Shown here in pieces: positions 7,552 through 59,114 of a stretch of 64,000 nt of DNA (positions are counted from its first letter, which is position 1; each line of letters opens with the position of its first letter). A model generated the notes under the pieces. It did not search any database and had not been told where the DNA came from. It was given only the letters and a program-made list of their open reading frames with translations. Source of the DNA: Candidatus Lumbricidiphila eiseniae. Lineage in GTDB: Bacteria > Actinomycetota > Actinomycetes > Actinomycetales > Microbacteriaceae. A program made the position numbers and the translations under genes. The stretch spans positions 1 through 64,000 of the forward strand of contig NAEP01000045.1 of assembly GCA_002529645.1 (NCBI GenBank), in the 5' to 3' direction.

Positions 7552-7639
7552 GGCACACCCGCCTGAACAAGGAACCGGGTCATGACGCCAGCTATGCCAC
7601 CGCCCGTCGCCGATGTGCCCGCTTGAACGGGGAACCGGG
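7552..7639. repeat. Paired direct repeat, 28-bp arms, 60-bp period (locus 1)
   Basis: Arms 7552-7579 and 7612-7639 flank a 32-bp insert (7580-7611). They match at 20 of 28 positions and all eight differences are transitions, so they look like a decayed duplication. The second arm contains CCCGCTTGAACGGGGA, an imperfect palindrome placed like the inverted repeats of a type I-E CRISPR repeat. The unit fills most of the ROK/SDR intergenic region. Confidence 0.65.
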
Positions 7640-7645
7640 AGTGGG

Positions 7646-8413
7646 TCACGATGTAGAGGTCACCTCCCAGCCGCCATCCACAGCGAGCACCTGACCGGTC
7701 ACCGCGTCTGCGGTGACAAACCAGCACAGTGCCGCCGCGACCTGCTCGGCTGTCAGCAGTCCCTGGGCCAGTGGCTGTTTTCGCTGTGCAAACGCGACGA
7801 TCGCGCGGTCCTGCGCTGCGCGCTGCGCCATTGGTGTGTGAACAAGTCCGGGTGCCACTGTGTTGACCCGGATCCCATCCGCCGCATAAGCCGCCGCGAG
7901 TGGCACGGTCCAGCCGGTAATTGCTGCCTTTGCCGCTGCGTATCCGTGCGTGGCGAAATTGTCGGGCTGTGGCGAGGTGGCAAGAACACTGGAGGTCATC
8001 ACAAGCGACCCACCCTGTGCTTTCATGTGCCGGACTGCTTCACGCGCTGTGAGGAACATCGTCGACAGATTGAGGCTTAACGACGCATTCCATGCCTCTA
8101 GCGACATATTATGCAACCAGCCGTCCCCCATTTTTCGGGCACTACCACCAGCGACGGCCACGACAGCGTCAATCTGCCCGAGCGCCTCAGCGGCCTCTGC
8201 AAACGCTGTGACCGCCGCTGACTCATCTTGAAGATCGGCGACCGCCCAACCTGCGCTACCGGCTCCGAGTGTGCTGGACAGGGCCGCGCAGCCACTGGCC
8301 CCGCGGGAGATGACGAACAGTCGGTGCCCATCGGCTGAAAGCTGTCGGGCGGTAGCAGCAGCAATGCCGGATGAGCCTGTGATGACGATGCCGCGCGTTC
8401 GCTTGTCCATCAA
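7646..8413 (-). CDS. Short-chain dehydrogenase/reductase (SDR)
   Basis: NAD(P)-dependent oxidoreductase of 255 residues. The Rossmann motif is slightly modified (ITGSSGIAAATARQL, where TGxxxGIG is usual). The catalytic Ser is in MTSSVLA and the YxxxK pair in HGYAAAKAA. The C-terminus VTGQVLAVDGGWE is typical of classical SDRs. The substrate is probably a sugar or polyol intermediate of the cluster. It is divergent from the FAD oxidoreductase; the 144 bases between them contain the best candidate GntR palindrome. Confidence 0.9.
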   Translation of the reverse strand: MMDKRTRGIVITGSSGIAAATARQLSADGHRLFVISRGASGCAALSSTLGAGSAGWAVADLQDESAAVTAFAEAAEALGQIDAVVAVAGGSARKMGDGWLHNMSLEAWNASLSLNLSTMFLTAREAVRHMKAQGGSLVMTSSVLATSPQPDNFATHGYAAAKAAITGWTVPLAAAYAADGIRVNTVAPGLVHTPMAQRAAQDRAIVAFAQRKQPLAQGLLTAEQVAAALCWFVTADAVTGQVLAVDGGWEVTSTS

Positions 8414-8487
8414 AACCTCCCGGAGGTGCTGGCTATGCGGTAGAACGAGTTCGACGCAGTTTCGCTAATGACCGACCTATTGTGTCA

Positions 8488-8505
8488 TAGTAGTATATAC
8501 AACTA
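8488..8505. promoter_or_regulatory. Candidate GntR operator, near-palindrome TAGTAGTATATACAACTA
   Basis: An 18-base near-perfect palindrome centred on GTATATAC lies between the divergent SDR (8413) and FAD oxidoreductase (8558) genes. It shares CATAGTA and TATACAA with the element at 5726-5740. Its position suits control of both operons. Confidence 0.5.
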
Positions 8506-8528
8506 GCTGCAGCTTCGTGTCCTACTTG

Positions 8529-8563
8529 TGGAGTCAGCGTGGAATCTTGGAGTCAGCGTGGAA
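8529..8563 (+). repeat. 19-bp tandem duplication of a translation start
   Basis: The 16-mer TGGAGTCAGCGTGGAA occurs at 8529-8544 and again at 8548-8563. Each copy carries a GGAG ribosome site and a GTG codon. The second GTG (8558) opens the FAD oxidoreductase. The first (8539) is out of frame and opens an 11-codon ORF that ends at TAG. Confidence 0.9.
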
Positions 8564-9913: not shown

Positions 9914-10868
9914 CACGACCTTTATTCGCACGGTGCTGGGGGATGTCTCGGCTGATGCACTCGGCATGACCTACGCCCACGAACATCTCATCCTTGACAG
10001 TCCGCTGATTGCAGCCGTTTTCCCGCATATCCGACTCGATGATGCATCGGCGGCCATCTCTGAAGTCGCTCGGTGTCGTGACGCGGGTGTGAAGACAATG
10101 GTGGACGCGATGCCGTGCTCGGCCGGTCGTGACGTCGTCCGGCTCGCCGAAATTAGCCTGGCCACGGGGGTCAACCTGATCACCGCGACCGGGCTGCACC
10201 ACGAGCGGTACTACGGTGCGCGTCACTGGACTGCTCGCATCGGTGTCGACACGCTCGCTCAGCTGTTCATTGATGATCTCGTCATCGGCGTGGATGAATT
10301 CGACTACACCTCGCCGATTTTGCAGCGAACTGAGCATCGCGCCGGAATTATTAAAGTTGCGACGAACGGGGGAAAACTCGATGCGCGTGACCAGCGTGTG
10401 TTCGAGGCTGCGGCGCACGCACAGAGGGTGACTGGTGCACCCATCCTGACGCACTGCGAGCACGGTAGGGGTGCGATGGAGCAGATCTCGGCACTGGCCC
10501 ATCTGGGCGTATCGACCGATGCCATCCTGCTCTCTCATATTGACAAGGTCACCGATGTTGGGTACCACCGGGATATCGCCGAAACCGGTGCGTGGTTACT
10601 GTTTGACCAGGGGGTTCGCCAGGCTGGCAACCCCGTCCCCCCGACAGCAACGCTCATCGCACGGTTGGCTGAGAGCGGCCACCTGGGCTCACTCATTCTG
10701 GGAACCGATGGAGCGCGCCGCGACCTGTGGTTAGAGTACGGCGGAAACCCCGGTTTGGTCTGGCTTGCGGCTGATTTTCCGACAAAGCTCGTTGCGCAGG
10801 GCCTCACCGACGCAGATGTTCGGCAACTCCTGGTTGACAACCCGGCCCGTGCGCTTGCATTTCGGTAG
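9906..10868 (+). CDS. Phosphotriesterase-family metal-dependent hydrolase
   Basis: Metal-dependent TIM-barrel hydrolase of 320 residues (PTE/PHP family). The ligands are readable in order: HEH in MTYAHEHLI, the bridging lysine in GIIKVATNGGK, histidines in THCEHG and LLSHIDK, and aspartate in LGTDGARR. The GTG start at 9906 overlaps the end of the FAD gene. Family members close to this type are mostly lactonases or esterases rather than organophosphate hydrolases. Placement after an oxidoreductase suggests it opens a sugar lactone; the substrate is unproven. Confidence 0.9.
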   Translation: MADTTFIRTVLGDVSADALGMTYAHEHLILDSPLIAAVFPHIRLDDASAAISEVARCRDAGVKTMVDAMPCSAGRDVVRLAEISLATGVNLITATGLHHERYYGARHWTARIGVDTLAQLFIDDLVIGVDEFDYTSPILQRTEHRAGIIKVATNGGKLDARDQRVFEAAAHAQRVTGAPILTHCEHGRGAMEQISALAHLGVSTDAILLSHIDKVTDVGYHRDIAETGAWLLFDQGVRQAGNPVPPTATLIARLAESGHLGSLILGTDGARRDLWLEYGGNPGLVWLAADFPTKLVAQGLTDADVRQLLVDNPARALAFR

Positions 10869-10925
10869 CGAGAGGCGTTCAGTGATGCGGCGTGATTTGG
10901 TCTCTGGACTATCCGGTCTGGGTGT

Positions 10926-13847: not shown

Positions 13848-14354
13848 TCAGCCGGGACCGTTGGCGAGGAGCTTCTCGACACCGTCGAGACCCTCACGCG
13901 TGCCGACCACCACAATGAGATCCCCCGGGCGCAACACGTCGGTTGGTGTTGGCGAGGGAATGATGGTGCCGTCACGCATAATTGCAACAATCGAACAGCG
14001 GGTGCGGGTGCGGGCCTTGGTGTCGCCGAGCGGACGATTGAGGTACGGGGAGTCAGTCGGCAGCGCGATCTGTTCCGTGTAGAGTCCGGTTGTCTCATCC
14101 GACAGGCTTGTCAGCCGACTCAGCATGACCGACGCTCCGAGAACGTCGGCGAGCGCCGCAGCCTCGTCATCACTGAGCGCAATTGATGCTCGGCAGGTGT
14201 CTTCGTCGTCGTCGTCAATGATGCCGATGCTGCGATCCCCGTTGCGCTGCGATACAACACTCACACGATGCCCGCCCTCGGTAACGAGGTCGTGGCGCAC
14301 GCCAATGCCCGGTAGATCAATTTTTGCGATTCGAATACCCACATCAGCAATCAT
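13848..14354 (-). CDS. RCK_C (TrkA-C) regulatory subunit, KhtT-like
   Basis: Cytoplasmic protein of 168 residues from the ATG at 14354 (MIADVGIRIAKIDLPGIG). The N-terminal half matches KhtT-type proteins (VTEGGHRVSVVSQRNGDR) and the C-terminal half is an RCK_C domain (RSIVAIMRDGTIIPSPTP-like, then LRPGDLIVVVGT). RCK_C domains gate antiporters in response to ligands such as cyclic di-AMP or nucleotides; which one applies here is unknown. A longer frame to 14450 adds a low-complexity leader that I do not believe is translated. Confidence 0.88.
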   Translation of the reverse strand: MIADVGIRIAKIDLPGIGVRHDLVTEGGHRVSVVSQRNGDRSIGIIDDDDEDTCRASIALSDDEAAALADVLGASVMLSRLTSLSDETTGLYTEQIALPTDSPYLNRPLGDTKARTRTRCSIVAIMRDGTIIPSPTPTDVLRPGDLIVVVGTREGLDGVEKLLANGPG

Positions 14355-14394
14355 ACCCTGTTTGCGTGGTGCGCCGCCCGGGATGCCACGGGTC

Positions 14395-14503
14395 GTGGCC
14401 TCCTTATTAGCTGGGAGTTGTCGGCCGGTTGACCCGACCGAGGCCCGCACTCACGCCGACCTTTTCGTCAGCTGGGAGTCATCTTTGTTAGCTGGGAGTC
14501 ATC
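14395..14503. repeat. Paired direct repeat, 61-bp period, plus 20-bp tandem copy (locus 2)
   Basis: Arms 14395-14422 and 14456-14483 flank a 33-bp insert (14423-14455). They agree at 18 of 28 positions, and nine of the ten differences are transitions. The core AGCTGGGAGT is conserved. A third copy of AGCTGGGAGTCATC starts 20 bases after the second and overlaps the stop codon of the MFS gene. I placed the window using the CTGGGA motif, so its exact limits are uncertain. Confidence 0.5.
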
Positions 14504-15696
14504 GGGATCGGTTCCGTGTCAGGCACCGGGCTAACATCGCGGCCGCGGAGGTCTGGATGCCAACGGCGTGCGAGAGTTGGCACGAGGCAGGTAAAGAATG
14601 CGAAACCCGCGGCTGCCCACAGCGCTCCGGTCGGCCCTTCGCTGTCGATGAGGAACCCGGCGGTCGCCGATCCGAGTGCGGCACCGATGAGTTCCCCTGT
14701 GCCCAACCATCCGAACGCTTCGGCGGTGTCGGCGAACTTCACGTTCGACGACACAATCGCTGAGATGACCGTGAGTACCGGCGCAATTCCGAGGCCGGCT
14801 ATGAACAGCGTGACAGCGAGCCACGGTGCGTTGAGGAAAAGGGTGGCCAGGGCCATCCCAAGAAATATGATGAGGGAACGTCGGGCAGTTGACCACGGTG
14901 ATATTTGTTTGTGTCCAAATGCAAAGCCACCGATGAGGGAGCCGGTCGAAAACGCCGCGAGAACGAAGCCTGAGACCGGTGAGCCGTGGCCGAAGGCCGA
15001 CACAACTCCTGCCTCAATGGCCGCGCACGCGGCAATAAGGAGGAAGCCCACCACTGTCGCGAGCATGATCGGTGGGCGGGTCAGCACAGCACCGAACCGT
15101 CGTTTTGAGCGAGGTATTCTCACGCGACCGAGTTCAGGACAGGATATGAACCACGCTCCGCCCCCGACTGTGAGCAGCATCGTGAGCAAGAGCGCCCAGA
15201 CCGTGCCGAGGCCGGTGGCCAGAAATGCGGCTACGACGGGGCCGATCACCCAGATCACCTCCTGCACCGCGGCATCCAGCGAATACAGAGGAGTTAGCTG
15301 GCTCGCGTTGACCATCTTGGGATAGATTGTGCGGACGGCCGGTTGCACGGGTGGCGTGGTGATGCCGACGAGTAGGCCCACAACGACGTACCACGGGACG
15401 GACATCGGGACCCACGCGATTGCGGCGGTCGCGGCGACGCAGACGCTGACGGTTGTGCCAAGGACCGTGCGCATTCCCACGCGACCCATCATCCGGCTCA
15501 TAAGCGGGCCCGCGGTTGCCTGTCCAACAGAGGTTGCCGCGAGCATTAGGCCCGCCGCGGCGTAGGACCCGGTCCGCTGTTCGATGTGGAGCAGGAACAC
15601 GAGCGCGAGCATTCCCTGCGGGAACCGAGCAGTCAACTGGGCGGCGACAACGCGGGCGACACCCGAGGTCTTGAGGAGTTCGGAATAGTGGCCCAC
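14488..15696 (-). CDS. MFS transporter
   Basis: Major facilitator protein of 402 residues with about 12 membrane segments. The motif GPLMSRMMGRVGMRTVLG after segment 2 is the conserved cytoplasmic loop. GELIGAALGSATAGFLIDSEGPTGALWAAAG in the last third resembles drug or metabolite efflux members. It is monocistronic on the minus strand. The stop codon lies inside a short tandem repeat (AGCTGGGAGTCATC), so the last few residues (PIPMTPS) may be repeat-derived. The substrate is unknown. Confidence 0.88.
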   Translation of the reverse strand: MGHYSELLKTSGVARVVAAQLTARFPQGMLALVFLLHIEQRTGSYAAAGLMLAATSVGQATAGPLMSRMMGRVGMRTVLGTTVSVCVAATAAIAWVPMSVPWYVVVGLLVGITTPPVQPAVRTIYPKMVNASQLTPLYSLDAAVQEVIWVIGPVVAAFLATGLGTVWALLLTMLLTVGGGAWFISCPELGRVRIPRSKRRFGAVLTRPPIMLATVVGFLLIAACAAIEAGVVSAFGHGSPVSGFVLAAFSTGSLIGGFAFGHKQISPWSTARRSLIIFLGMALATLFLNAPWLAVTLFIAGLGIAPVLTVISAIVSSNVKFADTAEAFGWLGTGELIGAALGSATAGFLIDSEGPTGALWAAAGFAFFTCLVPTLARRWHPDLRGRDVSPVPDTEPIPMTPS

Positions 15697-15783
15697 GGTG
15701 GAACTAGCCTATCGAGGACTGCCCGGGTTTGGTGCACGAGTTTTAGCGTCCTGACGGGGAACCAGCGTCACCCAATCCGACCT

Positions 15784-15872
15784 GGGCAGGGACACCAACC
15801 GCTGCGAGCAGCGGCACCCCGCGGTGGGCGGCATTATCCGGCAGGGGCAGCGGCATCAACCAGCGCCAGCCG
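15784..15872. repeat. Paired direct repeat, 61-bp period (locus 3, weak)
   Basis: Segments 15784-15811 and 15845-15872 agree at 20 of 28 positions with a 61-base offset. The similarity trails on for about 11 further bases, so the arms are less sharply bounded than at other loci. It lies in the 292-base gap between the MFS gene and the aldo/keto reductase. Confidence 0.4.
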
Positions 15873-18536: not shown

Positions 18537-18892
18537 TTAGTACTCCCTTGAACTGCAAAACCTGCGCCTTTCATTCAACTATATGGAGGGTGCCTTGTCA
18601 ATTTCACTCCCAGTTCTTTCAAAGCCCACCCATGGTTTTTCACAGTCCGGTAAGAGGTAGGGTTGCGCATGTTGTGTCAGAGGGTGGCTGTGATGTTGGT
18701 TGTTCTGGTGAGGCGGTGCAGGCTGTGTCTCCACATGTGAAACCGTAGGTGGTGGCTGGGGGCCACCCGGGCGAAACCCATCACCAGTCGGTGCGGTGAA
18801 CCTCATTTATACGTGTCAGCTGAGGTAGCAGTTATCGGCGTGCCCGACCTCGGGTGCAGCAAGTACGACGGGGCAGGTGTTTGGATGGTGGG
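18537..18892. other. Intergenic region, divergent promoters
   Basis: 356 bases between the secreted-protein gene (minus) and the M18 aminopeptidase (plus). It contains a small hairpin, GGTGGC with GCCACC around 18750, and a T/G-rich stretch. No coding region, known riboswitch or clear promoter is visible. Confidence 0.6.
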
Positions 18893-20227
18893 ATGTCTCA
18901 CCTAGATACTGACACCTACGCTGCTGACCTCGCTAGCTTTGTTGTAGCCAGCCCCTCGTCCTACCACGCGGTCAGCGAGATCGCTCGACAGCTCCGGGCC
19001 GCGGGGTTTCTTGAACTCACGGAAACCGATGAGTGGCCGAGTGACGCGGGTGCGCGCTTCGTCGTGCGTGACGGAGCCATCGTGGCGTGGCGGCAACCGG
19101 TCGGGGCATCCGCCACAACCGGTTTTCGCATCCTTGGTGCGCACACCGACTCGCCCTCGTTCAAGCTGAAGCCGACGCCCGATTCACTCAGTGAAGGATG
19201 CCTGCAGGTCGCTGTTGAGGTGTATGGCGGGCCGCTGCTATCGTCGTGGCTGGATCGGGAGCTGGAGCTTGCCGGGCGTATCGTCACCCGCGACGGCGCG
19301 GTGCGTCTTGTTCGCACGGGGCCGCTGCTGCGAATCACGCAGCTTGCGATTCACCTAGACCGGGAGCAAAACACCTCGCTCACCCTCGACAAGCAGCGGC
19401 ACGTGCACCCGGTGTGGGGGGTTGGCGACAAGCCCGGCGACATCCTCGAACTGGTGGCGGGGGTGGATGCCTCACAGATCGCGGGGCACGACATCATGGC
19501 GGTGCCAACCGAGTCGGCGGCGCGCTTCGGTAGTGGCGGCATGCTGTTCGCCTCGGCGCGGCTCGACAACCTCAGTTCGGTGTTCGCGGGATTGCGGGGG
19601 TTGCTCGCGGCGAGCGGAGCGAGTTGGGATGACGATACGGGGGAGGCGGTGCAGGGACTGTCGGTGCGGTTATCGGCAGCCGCACCGGGTGTTGATCCGA
19701 TGATCCCCGTGTTTGCCGCCTTTGATCATGAGGAGATCGGATCGGGGTCGCGGTCGGGTGCGAGCGGTCCGCTGTTGGAGGATGTGTTGGCGCGGGTGAG
19801 CGCGGGGCTCGGGGCAACCGACAACGAATGGCGGCGGGCGGTCGCGGCATCCTGGCTCGTCTCAGCAGATACCGGTCACGCAACGCACCCCAACTATCCC
19901 GAGAAGCACGATCCGCTGACGCGCCCGCAACTCGGTCGGGGGCTGCTGCTCAAGCTCAATGCGAACCAGCGGTACGCGACAGACGCGGTGACATCGGCGA
20001 TGTGGGCGGGAGTGTGTGAGCGCGCCGGAGTCGCCGTGCAGCCCTTTGTGTCGCACAATCAGGTTGGATGTGGTTCAACAATCGGACCGCTTACGGCAAC
20101 CCGCCTGGGACTGCGGACCGTGGATGTCGGTGTGCCGTTGTTGTCTATGCACTCCGCCCGCGAACTCGCACACGTTACCGATCTTGTCGCGCTCGCAACA
20201 GCGGTCGCGGAGTATTTTCGCGGGTGA
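18893..20227 (+). CDS. M18 family aminopeptidase
   Basis: Cytoplasmic zinc aminopeptidase of 444 residues from the ATG at 18893 (MSHLDTDTYAADLAS). Metal and catalytic motifs are in place: GAHTDSPSFKLKP, FDHEEIGSGSRSG and DTGHATHPNYPEKHDP. The N-terminal FVVASPSSYHAV motif is typical of the family, which removes acidic or neutral N-terminal residues from peptides. The stop codon is followed almost at once by a paired-repeat unit that fills the whole gap to the convergent sulfurtransferase. Confidence 0.94.
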   Translation: MSHLDTDTYAADLASFVVASPSSYHAVSEIARQLRAAGFLELTETDEWPSDAGARFVVRDGAIVAWRQPVGASATTGFRILGAHTDSPSFKLKPTPDSLSEGCLQVAVEVYGGPLLSSWLDRELELAGRIVTRDGAVRLVRTGPLLRITQLAIHLDREQNTSLTLDKQRHVHPVWGVGDKPGDILELVAGVDASQIAGHDIMAVPTESAARFGSGGMLFASARLDNLSSVFAGLRGLLAASGASWDDDTGEAVQGLSVRLSAAAPGVDPMIPVFAAFDHEEIGSGSRSGASGPLLEDVLARVSAGLGATDNEWRRAVAASWLVSADTGHATHPNYPEKHDPLTRPQLGRGLLLKLNANQRYATDAVTSAMWAGVCERAGVAVQPFVSHNQVGCGSTIGPLTATRLGLRTVDVGVPLLSMHSARELAHVTDLVALATAVAEYFRG

Positions 20228-20228: not shown

Positions 20229-20317
20229 GTACCGGGTGTGTGGGCGGGGAGAATGTAGTGATTCTGATCCGACAGCGGGGTCGTAGACCGTACCGGGTGT
20301 GTGGGCGAGGAGAATGT
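20229..20317. repeat. Paired direct repeat, 28-bp arms, 33-bp insert (locus 4)
   Basis: Arms 20229-20256 and 20290-20317 are 28 bases long with a single G/A difference, and both ends are sharply bounded by mismatches. The insert 20257-20289 is 33 bases. Arm positions 17-22 read CGGGGA (CGAGGA in the second), the same bases at the same positions as in the E. coli type I-E repeat. The unit starts one base after the M18 stop codon and ends two bases before the sulfurtransferase stop codon. Confidence 0.9.
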
Positions 20318-20319: not shown

Positions 20320-21297
20320 TTAGTGGGGAAGATTTGCGGCGAGCTGGGTGAGCGGTGCGAGCGGGTTGGCCCGCCACGCGGCGAGTGAGCCGTCGTAGAC
20401 GGCAACATCCCGATGCCCGCGAAGGCGCAGTGCGAAGGCGACACCGGTCGCGAGAATGCCGTGTTCACAGTACGTGATGACGGGCCTGCGCGGGTCGATT
20501 GCCGCAGGGTAGCGGTCGAGTGCAGCACCGCTGAGGAGGTGGCGGGATGGCACCTCCAGCAGCGACTCGAAGGGAATATTGACACTGCCCGGGATGTGCC
20601 CAGAACGCGGGTCACCGGGGTTTCCCGCGAACGCTTGCCCCGACAGCCCGCATACGAGGGTTGTTTCGTGGTGGGGCTGGGCGCCACCGGGGTCTGAGGC
20701 CGTCAGCCCGCACACGAGGGTTGCCTCGGAGTCGTTGTTCACGGCAACCTCAACGCTCACCCCGGCAGCACCGTCGAGGATGCGGCGAACATCAGCGGTA
20801 GTGGCCCACCACCCGTCGCGCTCGCGCAGAGTAAGCTCGCCCGCCAGGCGGGGTTCCGTGTCTCCGCGCTCTTCAGGATGCCCCGCCTGGCGCCACCCCG
20901 AGAGCCCGCCGTTGAGCAGGGCCACCCGGTCGAGTCCGGCTGCACGCAGAATCCACCACACTCGTGCTGCCCACTGACCGAAGGCCGAGTCATAGATGAC
21001 GACCGTTGACGTATTGTCAATGCCGAGTGCTCGGAGCACCTGCTCGAGCCGTTCGAGGCCGGGCCGGGCCGGTGGAAACGGTGCTCCCGGCTCGCGGAAC
21101 GAATCAGCGGTGTCCGCATATACCGCTCCGGGAATATGACCGGTGATGAGGTAAGCATCATGTGCGCCCATCGGCATACCGGTCACCGGGTTGGTTGCCG
21201 ATGTGCTGGCATCCACAACGACGAGCCGCTGGTCACCGAGATGGTCGGCGAGCCACTCGAGTGACACCAGCGGTGATGGCAGTGGCAGATGGGACAT
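20320..21297 (-). CDS. Sulfurtransferase (two rhodanese domains) with a 20-residue internal repeat
   Basis: Thiosulfate/3-mercaptopyruvate sulfurtransferase-like protein of 325 residues. The first, inactive rhodanese domain includes GQWAARVWWILRAAG and LNGGLSGWRQAGHP. The active-site loop TYCEHGI, with the catalytic cysteine, is in the second domain. Between them LVCGLTASDPGG and LVCGLSGQAFAG repeat with a 20-residue spacing, exactly where the family normally has a short strand leading to RSGHIPGS. The repeat corresponds to the DNA unit at 20640-20727 and lengthens the interdomain region. The enzyme probably still folds, since flanking motifs are intact. Confidence 0.9.
   Translation of the reverse strand: MSHLPLPSPLVSLEWLADHLGDQRLVVVDASTSATNPVTGMPMGAHDAYLITGHIPGAVYADTADSFREPGAPFPPARPGLERLEQVLRALGIDNTSTVVIYDSAFGQWAARVWWILRAAGLDRVALLNGGLSGWRQAGHPEERGDTEPRLAGELTLRERDGWWATTADVRRILDGAAGVSVEVAVNNDSEATLVCGLTASDPGGAQPHHETTLVCGLSGQAFAGNPGDPRSGHIPGSVNIPFESLLEVPSRHLLSGAALDRYPAAIDPRRPVITYCEHGILATGVAFALRLRGHRDVAVYDGSLAAWRANPLAPLTQLAANLPH
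20640..20727. repeat. Paired direct repeat inside sulfurtransferase gene, 60-bp period (locus 5)
   Basis: Arms 20640-20667 and 20700-20727 agree at 24 of 28 positions (29 bases if one further matching base is counted). The insert is 32 bases (20668-20699). The arm core CCCGCATACGAGGG is an imperfect palindrome like that of type I-E repeats. The period of 60 keeps the reading frame and produces a 20-residue repeat in the protein. Confidence 0.85.
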
Positions 21298-27844: not shown

Positions 27845-28948
27845 CTACGGGCAGGTGAGGTATTTGTCCGCTTCGGTGAGTAGTTTCTTGGTCACCTCGG
27901 GTAGACCGTAGGGTTTGCCAATGACATCGGCCACGGTGCTGGAATCGACAAACTGGTAGCCCGAGTCCATCAGACGGTCGGTGAGGGCCGACTTCTTCCA
28001 GGGGCCGCCCGCGTTGACCGTGCAATTGTGGGTAATGATTCGGTTGAGCAGATAGGCGGCGACAAGACCCTGGCCGGATGAGTTCTGGAACATCGTGCCG
28101 TAGATGGCACCCTGTTGGATGGCCTGCATAACCTCGGGGCTGCTGTCGGCTGCCGCAAAAACGATGCGTTGATACTGGGAATTCTGCGACCAGATCTCCG
28201 CACCCGCTACTGACGGGTAGTACGACGTGGAGACAATGCCGTCGATGTGGTCGGCACTGCCGGCCAGTAGGCTCTGGATGGCGGGAGTCGCAGCGGTGGG
28301 ACTGTCGATATTGGAGACCACCTGCAAGAGCTTGACCTTGCCACCGGTCTCAGCGATGGCAGCTTCCACACCGGCCTGGCGCTGCACCGTATTTGCATCG
28401 GTGGGTTGGCCGGCCAGGAAGACAATGTTGCCTTTGCCGCCCATCTTTTTGATGACAAGCTCGGTCTGGGTCTTTGCTGCGGCCTCGACGTCGGTAGCCA
28501 GGCAGAAAAGTGCCGGAGTGGGCTGTTTGGTGCAGCCGGCCAGGTCGATGATTTTTGCGCCCTGGTCAATGATGCGCTGGTAGGCCGGTTGCAGTGCGGT
28601 CGCACCGTTGGGGAAGACGGCCATGCCGTTGACGCCCTGACTCGCGAGGGAATTGAGGGTGGTGATCTGCACCGCCGTCTCGAACGTCTGGGTGGGCGGC
28701 ACGACGTAGCTCACTTTCGCGATGTCGAACTGTTTCTGGGCGTCGGTAGCGCTCTGCTCCCACGGGGCGAAATAGATGTTCGGGCCGCCGGGAACCAGGG
28801 CGATGTTCGCTTTGCCACCGCCGGAGTTTCCGGACGAGGAAGGACTCTCGGTCGCGCTGCAGCCGACGAGCAGCACCGCTGTGGTCGCAATCGCGGCGAT
28901 ACTGAGACCCGGGTGCTTGACACCGCGCGATATGACTGGGATCAACAT
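27845..28948 (-). CDS. Sugar ABC transporter substrate-binding lipoprotein
   Basis: Binding protein of 367 residues with start ATG at 28948 after a strong AGGAGG ribosome site. The signal peptide ends in a lipobox VLLVGC, followed by a serine/glycine linker. The mature domain is of the Peripla_BP_4 type (NIALVPGGPNIYFAPWEQ, then GVNGMAVFPNGATALQPAY). It is the first gene of the minus-strand importer operon and divergent from the aldolase gene. The substrate is probably a sugar or polyol processed by the divergent pair. Confidence 0.93.
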   Translation of the reverse strand: MLIPVISRGVKHPGLSIAAIATTAVLLVGCSATESPSSSGNSGGGKANIALVPGGPNIYFAPWEQSATDAQKQFDIAKVSYVVPPTQTFETAVQITTLNSLASQGVNGMAVFPNGATALQPAYQRIIDQGAKIIDLAGCTKQPTPALFCLATDVEAAAKTQTELVIKKMGGKGNIVFLAGQPTDANTVQRQAGVEAAIAETGGKVKLLQVVSNIDSPTAATPAIQSLLAGSADHIDGIVSTSYYPSVAGAEIWSQNSQYQRIVFAAADSSPEVMQAIQQGAIYGTMFQNSSGQGLVAAYLLNRIITHNCTVNAGGPWKKSALTDRLMDSGYQFVDSSTVADVIGKPYGLPEVTKKLLTEADKYLTCP

Positions 28949-32237: not shown

Positions 32238-34034
32238 CTACCATCCCGGCAACCAAATGCGCAGCTGGCGGGCGGCGGCGCTCAGTGGCATCCCGGACCA
32301 CATCGGGTAGAAGAAGACCGTGAGAATAATGATGAGCCCGAAGAAGACCGCGACAACTCTCACCCGAAACTCTCGCCGCGGTCGAGGGTCGGAGGCGCGC
32401 CCGAGGAACAACCAGATACAGTACGCGAGCGCGAGCATGGTGTACGGCTGGAAGGCGATCGAGTAGAACGCGAACACCGTGCGGTTGAGGTACATGAACC
32501 ACGGCAGGTACCCGGCTGCGAACCCGAGCAGGATGAGCGCCACCTGCCACTCGCGGTATCGGACAAGTCGGTACACGAGGAAGAACACGGCCGCCGCAGC
32601 TGCCCACCAGATAAGCGGGTTCCCCAGGGCCATCACCGAGTCGGCGCACGCGCTTGCACCACAGGCCGCCTGGCCATCTTCGGTCACGGCGTAGTACATA
32701 TTCGTCGGGTGCAGCATGAACAGCCACTGCTCAGGGCTCGATTTTGCCGCATGCGGGCTTGTGACACCGAGATGAAAACCGTACACCTCCCTGTGGTACA
32801 TCCACAGACTCTGCAGACTCTTCGGCAGCCACGACCACAACCCGGTTGCTGCGTTGCCTGGTTGCATTGCCCAGCTGCGATCCCAGCCGCCGGTGGTAAC
32901 AAACCATCCCGTCCACGAAGCCAGGTACGTCACAAGCGCGATCGGCACATACAACACAAACGACACAGGGCCCTGTTTCAGGATGCCTCCGGCTGCCCAG
33001 TTACGCAGGCCCAACCGTCGTCGCTCCAGAGTGTCGACGACGACGACGTAGAGCCCGAGCGCGAGGACAAACCACACACCGGACCACTTCACCGCACAGG
33101 TCGCACCGACCGCGATAGCTGCGGCAAACAACCACGGTCGATTCCAGATTGCCGGACCCCAGTGATGATGGTGGGGTGCGCAGGCCAACCGGTCGGCCAA
33201 TTTCCGCAGTGAGCGTTGCCGATCAAGTAGGACGAACCAGAAACTCAGCAGTCCAAAGAGCATCACCCAGTTATCGAGCAGTGTGATCCGGGACATGACG
33301 ATCGCGTTGCCGTCGACAGCGAGGAGGAATCCGGCGATGACGGCGAACGCTGTTGATGAGAATAGTCTCCGGGCGAGCATCATGAGCAGGAAAACCGCAG
33401 CGATGCCCGCGAGAGCGGTGGTGATCCGCCAGGCGAAGGAGTGGTCAACACCAAAGAGAAGCATCCCCAGTCCAATGAGCCACTTCCCGAGTGGCGGGTG
33501 CACGACGTACGAGCCAGCATCCAAGAATGCGGGAACGTGCCCCTGACTGAATCCGGTATCGGCCTTGTCTGGCCACTTGCTCTCGTAGCCGTTGTTGACG
33601 AGGGTCCAGCTATCCTTCACGTAGTACGTCTCATCAAACACAAGGGAGTTGGGAGATCCCAGATTCCACAGCCGGAGCACTGCAGCGATGAGGGTAACCA
33701 GCAGGGGCGCCCCCCAATACCAGAGTGCCAGCCGTCGTGGCGTGTTGAGGAGCCGGGCCGAGAGGTCGTCGAGAATACTGCCGCGCGCGATAGGTGTGGT
33801 GGGTGTTTCGGTGAGCCTGTGGGACTCTTCGGCGGGTGTGCAGGGCTCCCCGGAGCTCGTGTGGCATTTATCGGGATGGCACCGGAGCGGTGACTCGGAT
33901 TGTGCAGCGTGTGCGAAGTCACTGGTGTCATCGAGATGTCCCGAGGGTGGGGGCTCGGATGCGTCAACGGCCCCCTCGGTGCAATGAACGGGCGGACTGG
34001 GCGCAGTGGGCTGCTCAGGATCAGCGACGGACAT
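32238..34034 (-). CDS. pmt: Protein O-mannosyltransferase (dolichyl-phosphate-mannose type, Pmt)
   Basis: Membrane glycosyltransferase of 598 residues that transfers mannose from polyprenyl-phosphate-mannose to secreted proteins. After a ~100-residue hydrophilic leader comes a GT39-type core with the acidic loop FDETYYVKDSW, HPPLGKWLIGLGM and a series of about ten membrane helices; WLFMLHPTNMYY and WYLPWF-like loops follow. The leader (low complexity, Pro/Ser/Glu/His-rich) is longer than usual and contains a decayed paired repeat at residues 25-54. The ATG at 34034 has GAGGG upstream. Divergent from rsmI, as in many actinobacteria. Confidence 0.92.
   Translation of the reverse strand: MSVADPEQPTAPSPPVHCTEGAVDASEPPPSGHLDDTSDFAHAAQSESPLRCHPDKCHTSSGEPCTPAEESHRLTETPTTPIARGSILDDLSARLLNTPRRLALWYWGAPLLVTLIAAVLRLWNLGSPNSLVFDETYYVKDSWTLVNNGYESKWPDKADTGFSQGHVPAFLDAGSYVVHPPLGKWLIGLGMLLFGVDHSFAWRITTALAGIAAVFLLMMLARRLFSSTAFAVIAGFLLAVDGNAIVMSRITLLDNWVMLFGLLSFWFVLLDRQRSLRKLADRLACAPHHHHWGPAIWNRPWLFAAAIAVGATCAVKWSGVWFVLALGLYVVVVDTLERRRLGLRNWAAGGILKQGPVSFVLYVPIALVTYLASWTGWFVTTGGWDRSWAMQPGNAATGLWSWLPKSLQSLWMYHREVYGFHLGVTSPHAAKSSPEQWLFMLHPTNMYYAVTEDGQAACGASACADSVMALGNPLIWWAAAAAVFFLVYRLVRYREWQVALILLGFAAGYLPWFMYLNRTVFAFYSIAFQPYTMLALAYCIWLFLGRASDPRPRREFRVRVVAVFFGLIIILTVFFYPMWSGMPLSAAARQLRIWLPGW
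33873..33960. repeat. Paired direct repeat in the Pmt leader, 60-bp period (locus 6, decayed)
   Basis: Arms 33873-33900 and 33933-33960 agree at 19 of 28 positions and end together at CTCGGAT. The insert is 32 bases (33901-33932). The encoded leader shows the matching pair SEPPPSGHLDD and SESPLRCHPDK, 20 residues apart. On the minus strand one arm keeps GGGA at positions 19-22. Confidence 0.55.
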
Positions 34035-35012: not shown

Positions 35013-35101
35013 GACCGGTCCCCGCGATGACTGCGGCTGCCTGCCCTCGCCGCGCGCGGCCTCCGCATCGGGCGACCGGTCCCCGCGATGAGGGTGATCG
35101 G
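35013..35101. repeat. Paired direct repeat between rsmI and metG, 61-bp period (locus 7)
   Basis: The 18-mer GACCGGTCCCCGCGATGA occurs at 35013-35030 and 35074-35091. If the arms are taken as 28 bases, the first 18 are identical and only three of the last ten match. The insert would be 33 bases (35041-35073). The second arm continues GGGTGATCGG, so it looks much like a type I-E repeat (GGTCCCCGCG...GGGTGATC). Confidence 0.7.
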
Positions 35102-46177: not shown

Positions 46178-46605
46178 GTTGTACTCGACTGCGCACGTTT
46201 CGGTTCTGCTCTGAGTTGAGGTCGAACGCCGGGCTCGCGGATGGCACAGGATCGCCCGAGTGGTGGGTCGCCAACGTTAGGGTCGAACGCCGGGCTCGCG
46301 GATGGCACCCCGCTGCGGCTGCACGGGCGTTTTCGCTCGTTTGCGGTGAGAACAGCGACATTTTTGAATGTGTTTATAATAAACTCTGCCGACGTTCCGG
46401 TGTTGATAATTTCCTGTTGTCGGCGGGAGTTACTGGTGAGATTCTGTCCGATGGTGTTTTCTGCGAGTAAGCCAGGGGTCTTCTGCAAAGAAGCTGAAAT
46501 TTTCGGATGTATTCTACATGCTCTGATAGCTTGGGCGCATTCGGACTGTGAAGGGCAGCCAGTCGACCGTCCTGGATCCGTGCATGAGAAAAAACGGAGA
46601 TCGCC
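46178..46605. other. Intergenic region between isomerase operon and lipoprotein locus
   Basis: 428 bases without an intact gene. It holds the paired repeat at 46220-46308. From about 46370 the sequence is a diverged copy of 38755-38850. A short stretch just before 46606 (ACGGAGATCGCC) serves as a ribosome site for the frameshifted ORF that follows. Confidence 0.6.
46220..46308. repeat. Paired direct repeat, two identical 28-bp arms, 33-bp insert (locus 8)
   Basis: Arms 46220-46247 and 46281-46308 are identical over exactly 28 bases, and the adjoining base on each side differs. The insert 46248-46280 is 33 bases. Arm positions 17-22 read CGCGGA and the 3' end reads GGATGGCAC, resembling the 3' half of type I-E repeats. 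This is the freshest of the units in the window. Confidence 0.95.
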
Positions 46606-46792: not shown

Positions 46793-47638
46793 ATGAATAA
46801 ACAGTCGTTAGTGAAGTTTCGACATGTGTTGCCGGTATTGCTGACTGTGACTGCTGTTGCTCTGTTGCCCGGTTGTGCTGCGCCGAACATTGACAAGTTT
46901 GGTGGTGTGACGGCTCGGCTCGATACGGAAACATCTTCGATTGGATATCCGCTTGATGACTACGTTTTGGTTGGGCGGGAAGCTCAAAAAATTGAACGGG
47001 CGGATGAGTTACTTTTTTCGAGGTGCGTTACAAAATTTGGGTTCACAGCGCCAATAACGAACTGGGTCGAGCATCTCGATATCCCAAATCGGCAGTATGG
47101 TATCTGGACGATGAAACAGGCTACCACTTGGGGATATGGTCTTCCCACAAATCCGACGATGGAACAAGAAAAAATCACGTACCCAGCAACTGTGCAGAAG
47201 ATGTCAGATGACGCATTTCGAGCGTGTCGTTCTAGCCCTGAAGAACTTCCAGCGATGCGGCCACACTCATCAAATCCAAACCAACCTAGCATTGTTGATC
47301 GTGGTTATATTGATGCGTGGATCCAGGCGATGGGAAATTCTGAGTGGCGTGCGATCCGCGAAAAGTGGGTGGCGTGTATCGGTCAGCGGCATCTGAAACC
47401 ATATTCTGGTGACAGTCTCGGGCCAGAATTGCCTCAGGATGATCTGGAGGCACAGATGAAAATCGCGTTAGTTGATGTGGAGTGCAAGATATCGCTGGGT
47501 ACGGTCCAGCAGTTGGCAGATATTGAATCGCGCTATCAGGCGGCATATATCGAGGCTAACCAAGCGGCATTGAATGAGGCTCGAAAGAAAGCCAGAGATG
47601 TACTCGCCAAAGCAGAGCGAATCATTGCTGGTGAATGA
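46793..47638 (+). CDS. Putative lipoprotein of a MacAB-type exporter operon
   Basis: Lipoprotein of 281 residues from the ATG at 46793 (MNKQSLVKFRHVLPV). The lipobox is VALLPGCAAP (cysteine at about residue 27). The mature part is mixed α/β and ends in a ~60-residue helix rich in Ala, Glu and Lys (IESRYQAAYIEANQ, ARKKARDVLAKAERII), probably coiled coil. No known domain is recognised. It overlaps the adaptor gene by eight bases, so it is likely a component or accessory of the exporter. A truncated near-identical copy lies at 38855-39525. Confidence 0.8.
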   Translation: MNKQSLVKFRHVLPVLLTVTAVALLPGCAAPNIDKFGGVTARLDTETSSIGYPLDDYVLVGREAQKIERADELLFSRCVTKFGFTAPITNWVEHLDIPNRQYGIWTMKQATTWGYGLPTNPTMEQEKITYPATVQKMSDDAFRACRSSPEELPAMRPHSSNPNQPSIVDRGYIDAWIQAMGNSEWRAIREKWVACIGQRHLKPYSGDSLGPELPQDDLEAQMKIALVDVECKISLGTVQQLADIESRYQAAYIEANQAALNEARKKARDVLAKAERIIAGE

Positions 47639-55299: not shown

Positions 55300-55344
55300 C
55301 CCGCGTTCACGTTTGAGGTGCACCCCACCACCGCCCCGGGCCCA

Positions 55345-55655: not shown

Positions 55656-55708
55656 GAGTGATTTTGCTCGACGTCGCAAAGCACCGGGCCGCGCGAGCAC
55701 GGAGCTGT

Positions 55709-56686
55709 TCAGCGGCCGAGCAGCCTGATCGCGGTTGCGGTGTCCGTCGCGAGCCCGTTCACTAGGCCGCTCCGCAGGGCCGACTGGATCGCGTTCACCT
55801 TCTCCGGTCCCGCCGCCACCGCGAGCCGGAGCCGGATGGCGAGGAACTCGTCCAGTGTTGGTCCCACGATTGTCGGGCCATCCTTGATCACGGCGGCGTG
55901 TGTGTCAACAAAGTGCATCAGCACGTCCGCGCTGACATCTGCTTGACGCAGCTGCTTCGCTGCCCACTCCGGCAGTGCGGATGACTGGCGGAGAGCCGAC
56001 GAGCCGCCCTGCCAGCCGCCCACTCCGACGAGAGCGCAGTCCGTCACCGCGAACTGGTGGAAGGTGCGCCGCAGCGATTCCTCCTGCCGCAGTGTGTCCG
56101 CGACCTGCGCGTTGGCGACAACCGCGGGTGCGTACAGCGAGTAGAGGCGACCGCCAAAGACATCGCTTGCCGCAGTGGCTAGGCCGATCGCGTTGAGTGG
56201 AAGTTCGACGCCGTCCACGCCCCCCGCCAGCTGCACGACATCAACCCGTGGCACTCGCCGCCGCTCCTGCAGTGAGCGGATGGTGTGGTACACACTCGTG
56301 CCCCAGCCGATTCCAAGCACGTTGCCGTCGCGCAGCGTGTCAAGCAGGGCACCTGCTGCGACCATCCCTACGGCCTCCAGATCCGTTGACGGTGTCGGCC
56401 CGGAGACCCTCGCCTGTTCGAGTCTGTATGTTTCGATGAGTCGGACTTCCAACTCGCGGGTGCTGCTGCTGCTGTCGACGATGCTGATGCGGACGATCCC
56501 GTGTGCGCGGCCGAACTTGATGAGGTCGGCCACTTTGAAGCGCGAGATGGAGAGTCTGTCTGCGATCTCGCTCTTTGTCAGCTCATCGACAAAGTGCAGG
56601 CGGCACACCTCAGCCACCAGCTGTTCGTCGGGGTCTGGGTCCATCCGAGCCCCGAGGCTCACGTGGGCTCCCTTTTCCCTGCCCAT
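55709..56686 (-). CDS. SorC-family sugar-binding transcriptional regulator
   Basis: Regulator of 325 residues. The N-terminal helix-turn-helix is VDELTKSEIADRLSISRFKVADLIKFGRAHGIV (in two parts, about residues 33-66). The rest is a sugar-phosphate-sensing domain with GIGWGTSVYHTIRSL and the effector-binding GPEKVNAIQSALRSGLVNGLATD near the end. It overlaps the upstream oxidoreductase by one base (TGATG), so it is the third gene of the operon 58946-55709 and probably regulates it through the TCTCANATG sites. Confidence 0.93.
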   Translation of the reverse strand: MGREKGAHVSLGARMDPDPDEQLVAEVCRLHFVDELTKSEIADRLSISRFKVADLIKFGRAHGIVRISIVDSSSSTRELEVRLIETYRLEQARVSGPTPSTDLEAVGMVAAGALLDTLRDGNVLGIGWGTSVYHTIRSLQERRRVPRVDVVQLAGGVDGVELPLNAIGLATAASDVFGGRLYSLYAPAVVANAQVADTLRQEESLRRTFHQFAVTDCALVGVGGWQGGSSALRQSSALPEWAAKQLRQADVSADVLMHFVDTHAAVIKDGPTIVGPTLDEFLAIRLRLAVAAGPEKVNAIQSALRSGLVNGLATDTATAIRLLGR

Positions 56687-57834
56687 CAGTCCTCCGGCGG
56701 AACCACGACGGTCCGCGGGTCGACCGGAACTCCGCGCCTGCTTGACTCCATCGCCGCGAAGCAGAGAGCCAGGCCCGGCAGAGAGTGGCGGGCATCGTTC
56801 GATGGCTCGCGTCCCTCTTCGATCGCCGAGAGTAATTCAGCCATTGTGCCGTGCATACCGTTCTGCCACCAGTCGCCCTGGAGAGGGATGACGAGGTCGG
56901 AGTCGTCGGTGACGATGCGCACGTCGTTCCCGCCGAGCGAGAGCCCCGTGTGCACCACGACACCGTCCGTGCCTTCGACGCGGTAACTGCCGCTTTCAAG
57001 CCGGTGGCTGGCGGCGCGCAGCACCAGGGTGGCGGTGGCATTCTCCCACGTGATAATAATTTGCGCTTCAGTGGGAACCGGGATGACCTGGCCGGGCCGG
57101 GAGTTGACTGCGGCATACACGCTGTGCGCCTGGCCGCGGTCGGCGAAGAGCCGCGAGATGAGGTCAAACCAGTGGATGCCGAAGTCGTAGAGGACCAGAT
57201 CGCGCATGTTCGCGAACGCCGGCATATCAGCGACGATCTTGTCGTGGGGCCAGTAAACCGCGAAGTCGGCGGAGGTGACTGTTCCAATCCTGCCGTCACG
57301 GGCGGCCGCGAGCATGATCGCGAAGTGTGGGGCCCATCGGCCGTTCTGGTTCACGGCGAGTCTCACTCCGGCACGGCGCGCGGTATTGATGAGCCGGGCA
57401 CCCACACCGAGATCCTTCACGAAGGGCTTCTGGCTCAAAACGTGCTTATGGGCACGGATGGCGCGCTCGATGAGTGCCGGTCGAACGTCCACGTGCGTCG
57501 CGATATCGACAACCTGCACATCGGGCCGAGCCAGCAGGTCATCGACGTCGTCGGTGATGTTGGCCGAGGGGAAGAATTCGTCCCGGCGCCCCCTGGCACG
57601 GTCGATCGAGTTGTCGCAGATACACACGACGTTGTACCCCGCGTCTCGATAGGCTGCCAGATGCATTCCGCTGATGTTTCCAGCACCGATCAGGCCGATC
57701 GGCCGGGAGAGCTCCACCGGATCCCGTGGCAGGTAGTCGATCCTCGCTTCTCTAACCGTTTCCTGTCGGCTATGGGTTTCGGATGCCCCCGCGGAGTCGA
57801 TCCTCGTTTCCCTGGCCGTTTCGTCGATGCTCAT
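56686..57834 (-). CDS. Gfo/Idh/MocA-family oxidoreductase with N-terminal repeat
   Basis: NAD(P)-dependent sugar or inositol dehydrogenase of 382 residues. The Rossmann motif IGLIGAGNISGMHLAAYRD starts at about residue 46, later than usual. The catalytic EKP motif is replaced by SQKPF, with Lys kept. The first ~40 residues contain the pair ETARETRIDS and ETVREARIDY, 20 residues apart, encoded by the paired DNA repeat 57735-57822. The start overlaps the upstream oxidoreductase by four bases. The leader is charged and probably disordered. Confidence 0.9.
   Translation of the reverse strand: MSIDETARETRIDSAGASETHSRQETVREARIDYLPRDPVELSRPIGLIGAGNISGMHLAAYRDAGYNVVCICDNSIDRARGRRDEFFPSANITDDVDDLLARPDVQVVDIATHVDVRPALIERAIRAHKHVLSQKPFVKDLGVGARLINTARRAGVRLAVNQNGRWAPHFAIMLAAARDGRIGTVTSADFAVYWPHDKIVADMPAFANMRDLVLYDFGIHWFDLISRLFADRGQAHSVYAAVNSRPGQVIPVPTEAQIIITWENATATLVLRAASHRLESGSYRVEGTDGVVVHTGLSLGGNDVRIVTDDSDLVIPLQGDWWQNGMHGTMAELLSAIEEGREPSNDARHSLPGLALCFAAMESSRRGVPVDPRTVVVPPED
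57735..57822. repeat. Paired direct repeat in oxidoreductase 5' end, 28-bp arms (locus 9)
   Basis: Arms 57735-57762 and 57795-57822 are 28 bases long, matching at 24 positions with four transitions. The flanking bases on each side differ, so the arm length is well defined. The insert is 32 bases (57763-57794). On the minus strand both arms read CGAGGA at positions 17-22, the I-E repeat position. The 60-base period keeps the frame. Confidence 0.9.
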
Positions 57835-58946
57835 TGCGCGCCCGTCTTCGCTGCGTCTGCGGTCTCGAGAATCACCGGGGCACCGGACTCAGCGCTCGCG
57901 ATGGAACTATCGACGATCCGCTGGCCAGCCCGCGAGATAGACCACGACATCGGGCCCGTCAGGATCCCACCGGACTCCAGCCCCGCAATCACGTGCGCGA
58001 CTCCGTTCGTGTCGGCTAGGTCAAGAACATCAACCGGGATGTCGCGACCCTCGGGATGCTCGTGCGTCTGCACGGTCACCGAGCCCGCGTAGTCAAAGCT
58101 TGAGATGGTGCCCTCCGTTCCGACGACAACGAACCCGCAGCGCGGCTGCGGCTGGTGGGTCCACGGATCGGTGAAGGTTCCCCAGCGCGTCTGCAGCGTC
58201 GAGAGGCCACCCGGGTACGACGCGATGACGACCGACTGCTCGTCCACCTCATCGCCCGGAGCAACGTGCGTGCGTGCGGTGATCTCCGAGGGGAGTTCAC
58301 CGCCGCGGAACCAGGTGCTCAGAGTTGCGCCGTAGCCGAGGTAGTCGAGGAGCGAGCCGCCGCCGCGTTCCTTCTGGTACCACCACGTCGTGCGACGGGC
58401 CTCTGGGTCGAGTGCCCCCTCGGCCTCCCTCTTGTCGTGCACGTGGTTGAGTGGCCCACGGTTGCCGTCGTAGTAGTGGACCTCGCGTACGCGGCCGATG
58501 AGACCCTCGTTGATCAGTCGCTGTGTGGTCCGATGCGGTGGATACCAGGCGAGAGGCCAGTTCACGGCGAGGAGGACATCGGCCGTGGTGGCGGCCTCGA
58601 TCATGCGATCAGCATCTTCAAGCGAGGTTGCGAACGGTTTTTCGAGGATGATGTTGACACCCTTGCCCGCGAGGTAATCGACCCACTCGGCATGCTCGCG
58701 GGTGGTCGAACAGACGACCGCGATGTCGGGTCGGCCACTTTCGATAAGTTCGTCCACGTCTGCAAACCGGATCTCCGCTGGAATATCGAAGTCGTCCGCG
58801 ACGATATCAACCCGCGCGGGGTCGCTGTCCCACAGACCCGCGGCGGCGGCACGGGGATGCTCAATGATCGCGCGCAGGAAGTCACCCGCGTGCATATGGT
58901 CGAAGCCGATGATAGCGATCTGCCAGATTTTGCTCTCGTGTGGCAC
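57831..58946 (-). CDS. Gfo/Idh/MocA-family oxidoreductase
   Basis: Dehydrogenase of 371 residues. The N-terminus has IAIIGFDHMHAGDFLRAI, a variant Rossmann motif lacking the usual GxGxxG. ILEKPFATSLEDADRM carries the catalytic EKP lysine. The C-terminal α/β domain includes YLGYGATLSTWF. It is the first gene of the SorC operon and lies downstream of the operator pair at 58993-59025. Confidence 0.91.
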   Translation of the reverse strand: MPHESKIWQIAIIGFDHMHAGDFLRAIIEHPRAAAAGLWDSDPARVDIVADDFDIPAEIRFADVDELIESGRPDIAVVCSTTREHAEWVDYLAGKGVNIILEKPFATSLEDADRMIEAATTADVLLAVNWPLAWYPPHRTTQRLINEGLIGRVREVHYYDGNRGPLNHVHDKREAEGALDPEARRTTWWYQKERGGGSLLDYLGYGATLSTWFRGGELPSEITARTHVAPGDEVDEQSVVIASYPGGLSTLQTRWGTFTDPWTHQPQPRCGFVVVGTEGTISSFDYAGSVTVQTHEHPEGRDIPVDVLDLADTNGVAHVIAGLESGGILTGPMSWSISRAGQRIVDSSIASAESGAPVILETADAAKTGAQ

Positions 58947-58992
58947 GTGTTCTCCGTTGATCTTGTCACACAGACGCCGTGAGTCGTCATGT

Positions 58993-59025
58993 TCTCAGAT
59001 GGTAACACTGATCTCAAATGAGCGA
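58993..59025. promoter_or_regulatory. Paired operator sites (SorC candidate) upstream of the oxidoreductase operon
   Basis: TCTCAGATGGTAAC (58993-59006) and TCTCAAATGAGCGA (59012-59025) lie 47-79 bases upstream of the start codon at 58946 and are 19 bases apart. Spacing and core (TCTCANATG) match the pair at 55623-55655. Confidence 0.65.
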
Positions 59026-59026
59026 T

Positions 59027-59114
59027 ATCCGACTCCACGAAACTGGGACACCAGCAGTTCAAGATCGTCACCGATGTCCGCGTCAATTCCGACTCCACGA
59101 AACTGGGACACCGG
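59027..59114. repeat. Paired direct repeat between SorC and ROK clusters, 60-bp period (locus 10)
   Basis: A 25-base core is identical at 59028-59052 and 59088-59112. As 28-base arms (59027-59054, 59087-59114) they match at 26 positions, and positions 17-22 read CTGGGA. The insert is 32 bases (59055-59086). The unit lies between two divergent promoters. Confidence 0.85.

Follow-up and report, generated by a model that had tools for sequence, protein, structure and literature searches.

The window analyzed here is a 64,000-nucleotide (nt) stretch of the draft genome of Candidatus Lumbricidiphila eiseniae (contig NAEP01000045.1, positions 1 to 64,000), in which short direct repeats recur once at a distance of 60 or 61 nt around a unique insert. 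Repeat-spacer-repeat (R-S-R) units of this kind are found across the genome, and with a probability of about 95% we regard them as ectopic integrations by the bacterium's own type I-E Cas1-Cas2, the adaptation complex of its CRISPR (clustered regularly interspaced short palindromic repeats) system. The geometry of the units, their target motif, their donors with an adjoining AA motif, their empty sites and their coherent decay can be followed directly in the sequence; Cas1-Cas2 of the lineage is the agent that we infer. A preliminary description of the window had read ten of its sites as off-target spacer integrations, a reading now supported by the genome-wide offset peak, the presence of type I-E cas1-cas2, repeat-like arms, self donors with AA, and empty sites.

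Repeat-spacer-repeat units in the genome and in the window

The scan covered 1,213,527 unmasked bases in 60 stretches, corresponding to about 43% of the 2.85-Mb draft assembly of 73 contigs. The offset counts were made with the native CRISPR array masked, and the set of units excludes low-complexity pairs, overlapping calls, pairs exceeding 35-36 nt and a degenerate array near C67:61.8 kb. The genome-wide offset distribution, which the preliminary description had proposed as a check, exhibited a sharp peak at 60-62: direct repeats of 28 nt with at least 22 identical positions occurred 8, 51, 108, 16 and 7 times at offsets 59, 60, 61, 62 and 63, respectively, compared to a mean of 0.57 pairs and a maximum of 7 at the background offsets (29-300 besides 59-63, leaving out 118-126). 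The final set comprised 169 units with an arm identity of at least 22/28, while a first set called at 23/28 or better comprised 91. The 169 units reside at 150 loci, the majority of which (136) carry a single spacer, while 12 carry two, one carries three and one carries six. Their density of 13.9 per 100 kb extrapolates to approximately 400 units per genome, and 54 of the 60 stretches contain at least one. A chance origin was ruled out by comparison of the offset spectra with other offsets, with a Markov-resampled window and with other genomes.

Among the 85 units with arms at least 24/28 identical, the mode of the arm length was 28 nt (31 units) and 57 had arms of 27-29 nt. Inserts in the first set measured 33, 32 and 34 nt in 57, 28 and 6 of the 91 units, respectively.

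Within the window, seven pairs reached 22/28 or better at offsets 29-399, and five of these were at offset 60 or 61: 46220 (28/28), 20229 (27/28), 59025 (26/28), 57735 (24/28) and 20640 (24/28). The remaining two were at offsets 81 (14397) and 59 (48867). With the threshold at 20/28, four pairs were present at offset 60 and four at offset 61, as compared to an average of 0.04 for each of the offsets 40-57 and 64-99 and, in 20 Markov-resampled windows, a mean of 0.05 (maximum 1) for offsets 60 and 61 together. The 19/28 pair at 31370 (offset 60) illustrates the chance level. Six of the ten sites named in the preliminary description are solid and two are likely, while 14395 and 33873 do not rise above chance.

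20229..20317, R-S-R unit: arms 20229-20256 and 20290-20317 (27/28), insert 20257-20289 (33 nt)
20640..20727, R-S-R unit: arms 20640-20667 and 20700-20727 (24/28), insert 20668-20699 (32 nt)
35013..35101, R-S-R unit: exact 18-nt core at offset 61, best 21/28
46220..46308, R-S-R unit: arms 46220-46247 and 46281-46308 (28/28), insert 46248-46280 (33 nt)
57735..57822, R-S-R unit: arms 57735-57762 and 57795-57822 (24/28), insert 57763-57794 (32 nt)
59027..59114, R-S-R unit: arms 59027-59054 and 59087-59114 (exact 25-nt core), insert 59055-59086
7552..7639, likely older R-S-R unit: offset 60, 20/28
15784..15872, likely older unit: offset 61, 20/28
33873..33960, chance-level candidate: offset 60, 19/28
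14395..14483, chance-level candidate: offset 61, 18/28, in a compound local repeat (offsets 20 and 81)

Arms of 28 bases around inserts of 32-33 bases, as previously described for the sharp sites, were recovered at 46220, 20229 and 57735. At 15784 the match extends to 35/48 from position 15775 and sharp 28-nt ends are lacking. Unit 35013 was counted as solid despite its 21/28 because its insert has a donor on contig C34 (near 14978-15009, 31/32 match). The units occupy a variety of gene contexts, including the position just past an M18 aminopeptidase gene (18854-20227) for unit 20229, and the start region of the methionyl-tRNA synthetase gene for unit 35013. Unit 20640 adds 20 in-frame codons to a rhodanese-domain gene (20320-21297, minus strand), and unit 57735 lengthens a GFO/IDH/MocA oxidoreductase gene (56686-57834, minus strand) by 20 codons close to the N-terminus. 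The proposal that coding pairs have a period of 60 survives as a tendency and not as a rule, with units at offsets 61 and 62 also present in long open frames.

The native type I-E system and other genomes

The genome encodes type I-E cas1, cas2, cas3, cse1, cse2, cas7 and cas5. In a profile search cas1 (334.9 bits) and cas2e (64.6 bits) scored above cut-off, while a cas6e-like gene is present with a score below it; the rest of the type I-E gene set is complete. An alignment of Cas1 with 11 relatives shows its active-site motifs to be conserved. The native array consists of 70 repeats of 28 nt, and 66 of its 69 spacers are 33 nt long. Both cas1-cas2 and a genuine array of 28+33 geometry, for which the preliminary description had recommended a search, are therefore present. 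A prophage on contig C11 contains full-length matches to three native spacers (33, 33 and 32 of 33 positions), each of them preceded by AA; this count leaves out two partial 26-nt matches, one in the prophage and one elsewhere. A search for the native repeat (25-nt core, allowing three mismatches) gave 71 hits, all of them in the array except one in the prophage.

No type I-E cas1 above cut-off was detected in the 59 other congeners examined, one of which gave a weak match. Samples of 80 kb each were taken from two congeners without type I-E cas1 and from three cas1-positive genomes of the order. None of these five samples contained a pair of at least 22/28 at offsets 61 or 62, while the rate observed in this genome would give approximately 11 units per 80 kb. 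In one congener three pairs at offset 60 reached 22-23/28. With the threshold lowered to 21/28, both congeners had three pairs at this offset, as they did at other multiples of three. Around other cas1 genes (best 80 of 242; 1.49 Mb), the isolated pairs at 60-62 numbered 19, compared to approximately 207 expected at the rate of this genome, in a scan that set aside pairs no more than 130 nt apart as arrays and would hide two-spacer neo-arrays likewise. By eye, 12 of the 19 were type I-E repeat remnants, while the other seven were close to the background of two per offset.

Several additional features of the native system were apparent. The repeat copy in the C11 prophage (L039:18158-18246; C11:38158-38246) lies beside an integrase gene; it is nearly identical to the host repeat (26/28) and is accompanied by a spacer of 33 nt and by a second repeat that is degenerate (17/28, offset 61). 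This arrangement may be a phage-borne mini-array or a repeat mimic, and its spacer had no match in the phage collection. At the leader end of the native array (L002:17574-17727; C67:47.6 kb), the leader and first repeat form a 77-bp tandem duplication, because of which the first native "spacer" (49 nt) is leader sequence. A degenerate short array with a canonical-like repeat (L003:11938-12263; C67:61.8 kb) overlaps the start of the cas6e-like frame upstream of cas3. The Cas1 protein of this genome (P0001) has GS just after the conserved histidine motif, where 9 of 11 relatives have GH, Brachybacterium GT and Jonesia GN, and it carries a one-residue insertion (GKPMAVGDN). The substitution and the insertion are a possible lead towards relaxed specificity. 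Cas1 relatives among the named genomes scanned were distant, with 51% identity at best.

Targets, donors and decay of the units

The arm sequences vary between loci and share a centred motif resembling the core of the native repeat, with CC at positions 8-9 and GG at positions 20-21. The preliminary description had placed GG(A/T) at arm positions 20-22; the GG at 20-21 was recovered, and the motif proved incomplete without the centred CC. C at position 8 and G at position 21, the core of the type I-E repeat, were present in 81% of 24 sharp arms with strands pooled and without fitting (39 of 48 cases vs 16.8 in shuffled arms). These 24 arms were identical to the native repeat at 12.8 of 28 positions, which exceeds both random genome 28-mers (8.8 +/- 0.43) and the same arms when shuffled (9.35 +/- 0.42) and thereby answers the comparison of arms with native repeat that had been suggested as a check. 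The shuffled arms rule out base composition as the cause of this likeness, and expectation-maximisation yielded much the same motif whether it was started at random or with the native repeat. A canonical array is defined by a single common repeat with a processable hairpin, while the arms of the units differ and fold weakly, with fold energies for four arms (one strand each) of -3.1 to -7.0 compared to -14.1 kcal/mol for the native repeat.

Empty sites were sought via homologous proteins and the genome's own paralogues because the relatives were too distant for a DNA-level search of whole regions. Among 20 congeners searched for rhodanese homologues, eight had a match covering the linker and were aligned. 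All eight possess a single copy of the motif encoded by the arms of unit 20640, and the gap relative to the 20640 protein is exactly 20 residues in seven of them and 24 in one; all eight also lack 12 further residues nearby. The G050 homologue of the oxidoreductase affected by unit 57735 fits an N-terminus approximately 20 residues shorter, with the start of the homologue inferred. In paralogous DNA, both flanks were contiguous through one arm for 9 of 149 loci, several of them in one multicopy family. The single-arm empty sites anticipated by the preliminary description are therefore found both in proteins of relatives and in paralogous DNA. Approximate copies of the multicopy family are located at L007:7200-8000, L012:4100-4550, L028:9500-9850, L165:1350-2200, L170:10000-10500 and L179:300-1800 and 14300-15500; several of them contain ectopic units, and in others the site is empty. 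One of the nine loci with such a paralogue is the six-spacer locus (L179:751-1143; C1:160751-161143), which has its paralogue on C14 with one arm and a left flank matching at 29/29 bases, which indicates that the six-spacer array grew on ordinary, non-CRISPR sequence.

These observations bear on the possibility that the units are decayed remnants of genuine CRISPR arrays scattered over the genome. Their period is equal, their core motif is related and a degenerate canonical-like array does exist near C67:61.8 kb, but the arms vary by locus, copies of the native repeat are confined to the array and the prophage, the spacers with donors are self DNA, and single-arm empty sites refute this origin for the units that have them. 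We consider it extremely improbable overall.

Donors were identified for 62 of the 169 inserts within the sampled 43% of the genome, or approximately 86% if extrapolated, and the inserts are largely copies of the bacterium's own chromosome. In the first set, a donor match of 26 nt or more within the sampled 43% of the genome was found for 31 of 91 inserts; in 400 kb from other genomes the corresponding number was 1 of 91. A search for dispersed exact matches that made no use of the arms (20-mers with six or more occurrences were skipped) gave 74 pairs at 20 nt, falling to 6 at 30 nt and followed by 28 at 33 nt and 8 at 35 nt; the exact-match controls in other genomes (80 kb each, single strand) were too small for comparison. 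Among the 130 exact pairs of 27-36 nt, 41 had only one member inside arms, none had both and 89 had neither, many of the latter belonging to multicopy families. When donor matches were extended, exactly 33 nt was the commonest length (35 of 61). AA adjoined one donor end in 44 of 61 cases, compared to 12.0 +/- 3.1 for random 33-mers (maximum 20 in 500 trials).

Two further explanations have to be weighed against these data. Filler (templated) repair at staggered double-strand breaks, such as Ku/LigD end joining that copies a short chromosomal piece and duplicates the staggered ends, would account for inserts that copy the cell's own DNA between direct repeats. It gives no reason to expect a 28-nt duplication mode, a 33-nt length peak, an AA beside the donor as at the prophage matches of native spacers, target sites with a repeat-like CC...GG core, or a site that grows serially into a six-spacer array of regular period. 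The pattern was also not seen in the sampled DNA of the two congeners that lack type I-E cas1, and we regard such repair as highly improbable. Target-site duplications around an insert are a hallmark of transposition, and the direct duplications flanking each insert could accordingly suggest a small mobile element (a miniature inverted-repeat transposable element, a casposon-like element or an insertion-sequence remnant) with a 28-bp target duplication. However, the inserts copy differing donor sites across the genome, none of the 41 flagged pairs has arms on both members, and insert ends are not shared according to base counts alone (no separate end-motif search was made), so that we assign this possibility next to no weight.

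The ten window inserts followed the same pattern in part. Own-genome donors were found for 46220 (C12 near 22628, AA ahead of the donor), 59027 (C7 near 47317-47349, AA ahead of the donor) and 35013 on C34, and none for the other seven, as the search proposed in the preliminary description turned out. The inserts of 7552, 14395, 15784 and 33873 had no donor within the sampled part of the genome. A phage origin was rejected for the inserts of 20229, 20640 and 57735, the only three searched against the phage collection, where they had no match. Plasmids gave no near-identity match in a search with one 4-kb piece of the window containing 46220. Conversely, the window itself harbors donor sites for units located elsewhere:

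15713..15745, minus strand, donor site: 33/33 match to the insert of a unit on C1 (L007:7633)
10233..10265, minus strand, donor site: insert of a unit on C2 (L009:2577)
9960..9993, minus strand, donor site: insert of a unit on C12 (L019:15605)
28825..28857, plus strand, donor site: insert of a unit on C7 (L162:4272)
56483..56516, minus strand, donor site: 34 nt, preceded by AA, insert of a unit on C56 (L161:10608)
57334..57366, plus strand, probable donor site: 33-nt insert on C56 (L160:9753; arms 20/28)

The units also differ in age and in their effect on reading frames. Arm identity starts at the cut-off of 22 and reaches 28 of 28, arm decay correlates with insert-donor decay (n=61, rho 0.39, p 0.0017), and transitions exceed transversions in arms (281 vs 179) as well as in inserts (45 vs 14). 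Among the 111 units far enough from stretch ends for the reading-frame test, 35 were inside an empty-site open frame of at least 900 nt, compared to 74% of random positions. By offset, these represented 13 of 34 units at 60, 15 of 68 at 61 and 7 of 9 at 62, and the frame was shortened by more than 300 nt in 0, 5 and 2 of them, respectively. An assembly or sequencing artefact might be suspected in a 73-contig draft, but with units in 54 of 60 stretches, graded and correlated decay of arms and inserts, and frame kept by offset-60 units, its probability is minute.

Apart from these units, the window contains a 300-nt stretch twice with 100% identity (38902-39201 and 47015-47314) and related sequence near both copies; four open reading frames on or beside this duplicate had no Pfam match.

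Proposed ectopic integration: counter-evidence, known systems and implications

Several observations weigh against ectopic integration by Cas1-Cas2. The palindromy of the arms is raised only modestly (4.38 of 14 pairs vs 3.62 +/- 0.34), and arms oriented by AA resemble the native repeat only a little more than its reverse complement (9.87 vs 9.30; 26 better forward, 18 reverse); orientation by motif alone is ambiguous because the motif is nearly palindromic. No AT bias was detected up- or downstream of 53 oriented units, for which no specific motif search was made; a leader-like or host-factor site beside the target is helpful to integration and not required. AA is absent near both ends of 17 of 61 donors, and 12 of 361 control 33-mers from the flanks also matched elsewhere, at least one being the donor of another unit and others belonging to a multicopy family. 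The small offset-62 class is undepleted in long open frames (7 of 9). Finally, the inserts of 20229, 20640 and 57735 had no donor in the whole genome assembly.

Off-target spacer integration leading to neo-CRISPR loci was reportedly described by Nivala, Shipman and Church in 2018 with Cas1-Cas2 overexpressed in E. coli, and several putative natural cases are said to have been named there. The likeness lies in Cas1-Cas2 acting outside arrays on a repeat-like target with one target copy on each side, while the differences here are a natural genome, an extrapolated 400 or so units of largely self-derived origin, and the additional presence of donors, AA motif, empty sites, decay and a six-spacer neo-array. 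That work is cited in PMC11788318, PMC9456107, PMC11687729 and PMC7642515. Canonical type I-E adaptation shares the 28-nt duplication, the 32-34-nt spacer, the AA beside the protospacer and Cas1-Cas2, but here the arms vary, no leader-like composition was found and the spacers are largely chromosomal self DNA. Casposons have defined ends and bring along a Cas1 of their own, which the 33-nt inserts in this genome cannot; the feature in common is a Cas1-family integrase (PMC6977970). Ectopic acquisition in Streptococcus thermophilus likewise involves integration away from the usual site, but it takes place inside an existing, true array of type II-A (PMC7999890). Among the titles and abstract openings listed from the open-access literature, with subscription papers largely outside the scope, no report of a comparable genome was found. 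The process itself is known and its natural scale appears to be new, together with the self origin, the natural setting and the intermediate stages.

Under ectopic integration, Cas1-Cas2 would capture fragments of approximately 33 bp adjoining AA, mostly from the cell's own chromosome, and join them into chromosomal sites with a centred CC...GG core like that of the native repeat, after which gap filling would duplicate the 28-bp target on both sides and create the R-S-R unit. Such events would build up over a long time and decay by point mutation; long open frames retain fewer of them than expected, those at offset 60 preserving the frame, and repeated hits at some sites would give short neo-arrays of up to six spacers. 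Promiscuity in this genome could stem from a relaxation of specificity, from high expression, or from the lack of a host factor that confers specificity, as in a system acquired without it. Considering the weak folding of the four arms, transcripts of the units would probably remain unprocessed into guides; the arms would be poor Cas6e substrates, and self spacers that would be lethal in the native array would thus be tolerated there.

The origin of new CRISPR arrays, the natural rate at which Cas1-Cas2 misfires and the self DNA sampled before self-targeting cells are lost to selection are open questions, and this genome appears to be a fossil record of all three: its approximately 400 extrapolated events are of graded age, their donors, targets and motif can be read, and stages with one, two, three and six spacers are preserved. 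CRISPR adaptation can act as an insertional mutagen that leaves an in-frame insertion of 20 residues in a conserved protein. We tentatively propose, at somewhat less than even odds, that the adaptation complex may function here as a genome-wide copy-and-insert element, which would continually seed arrays (the six-spacer locus on C1 being caught in mid-growth), furnish proteins with 20-residue inserts and leave an unselected record of the self DNA sampled in naive adaptation.

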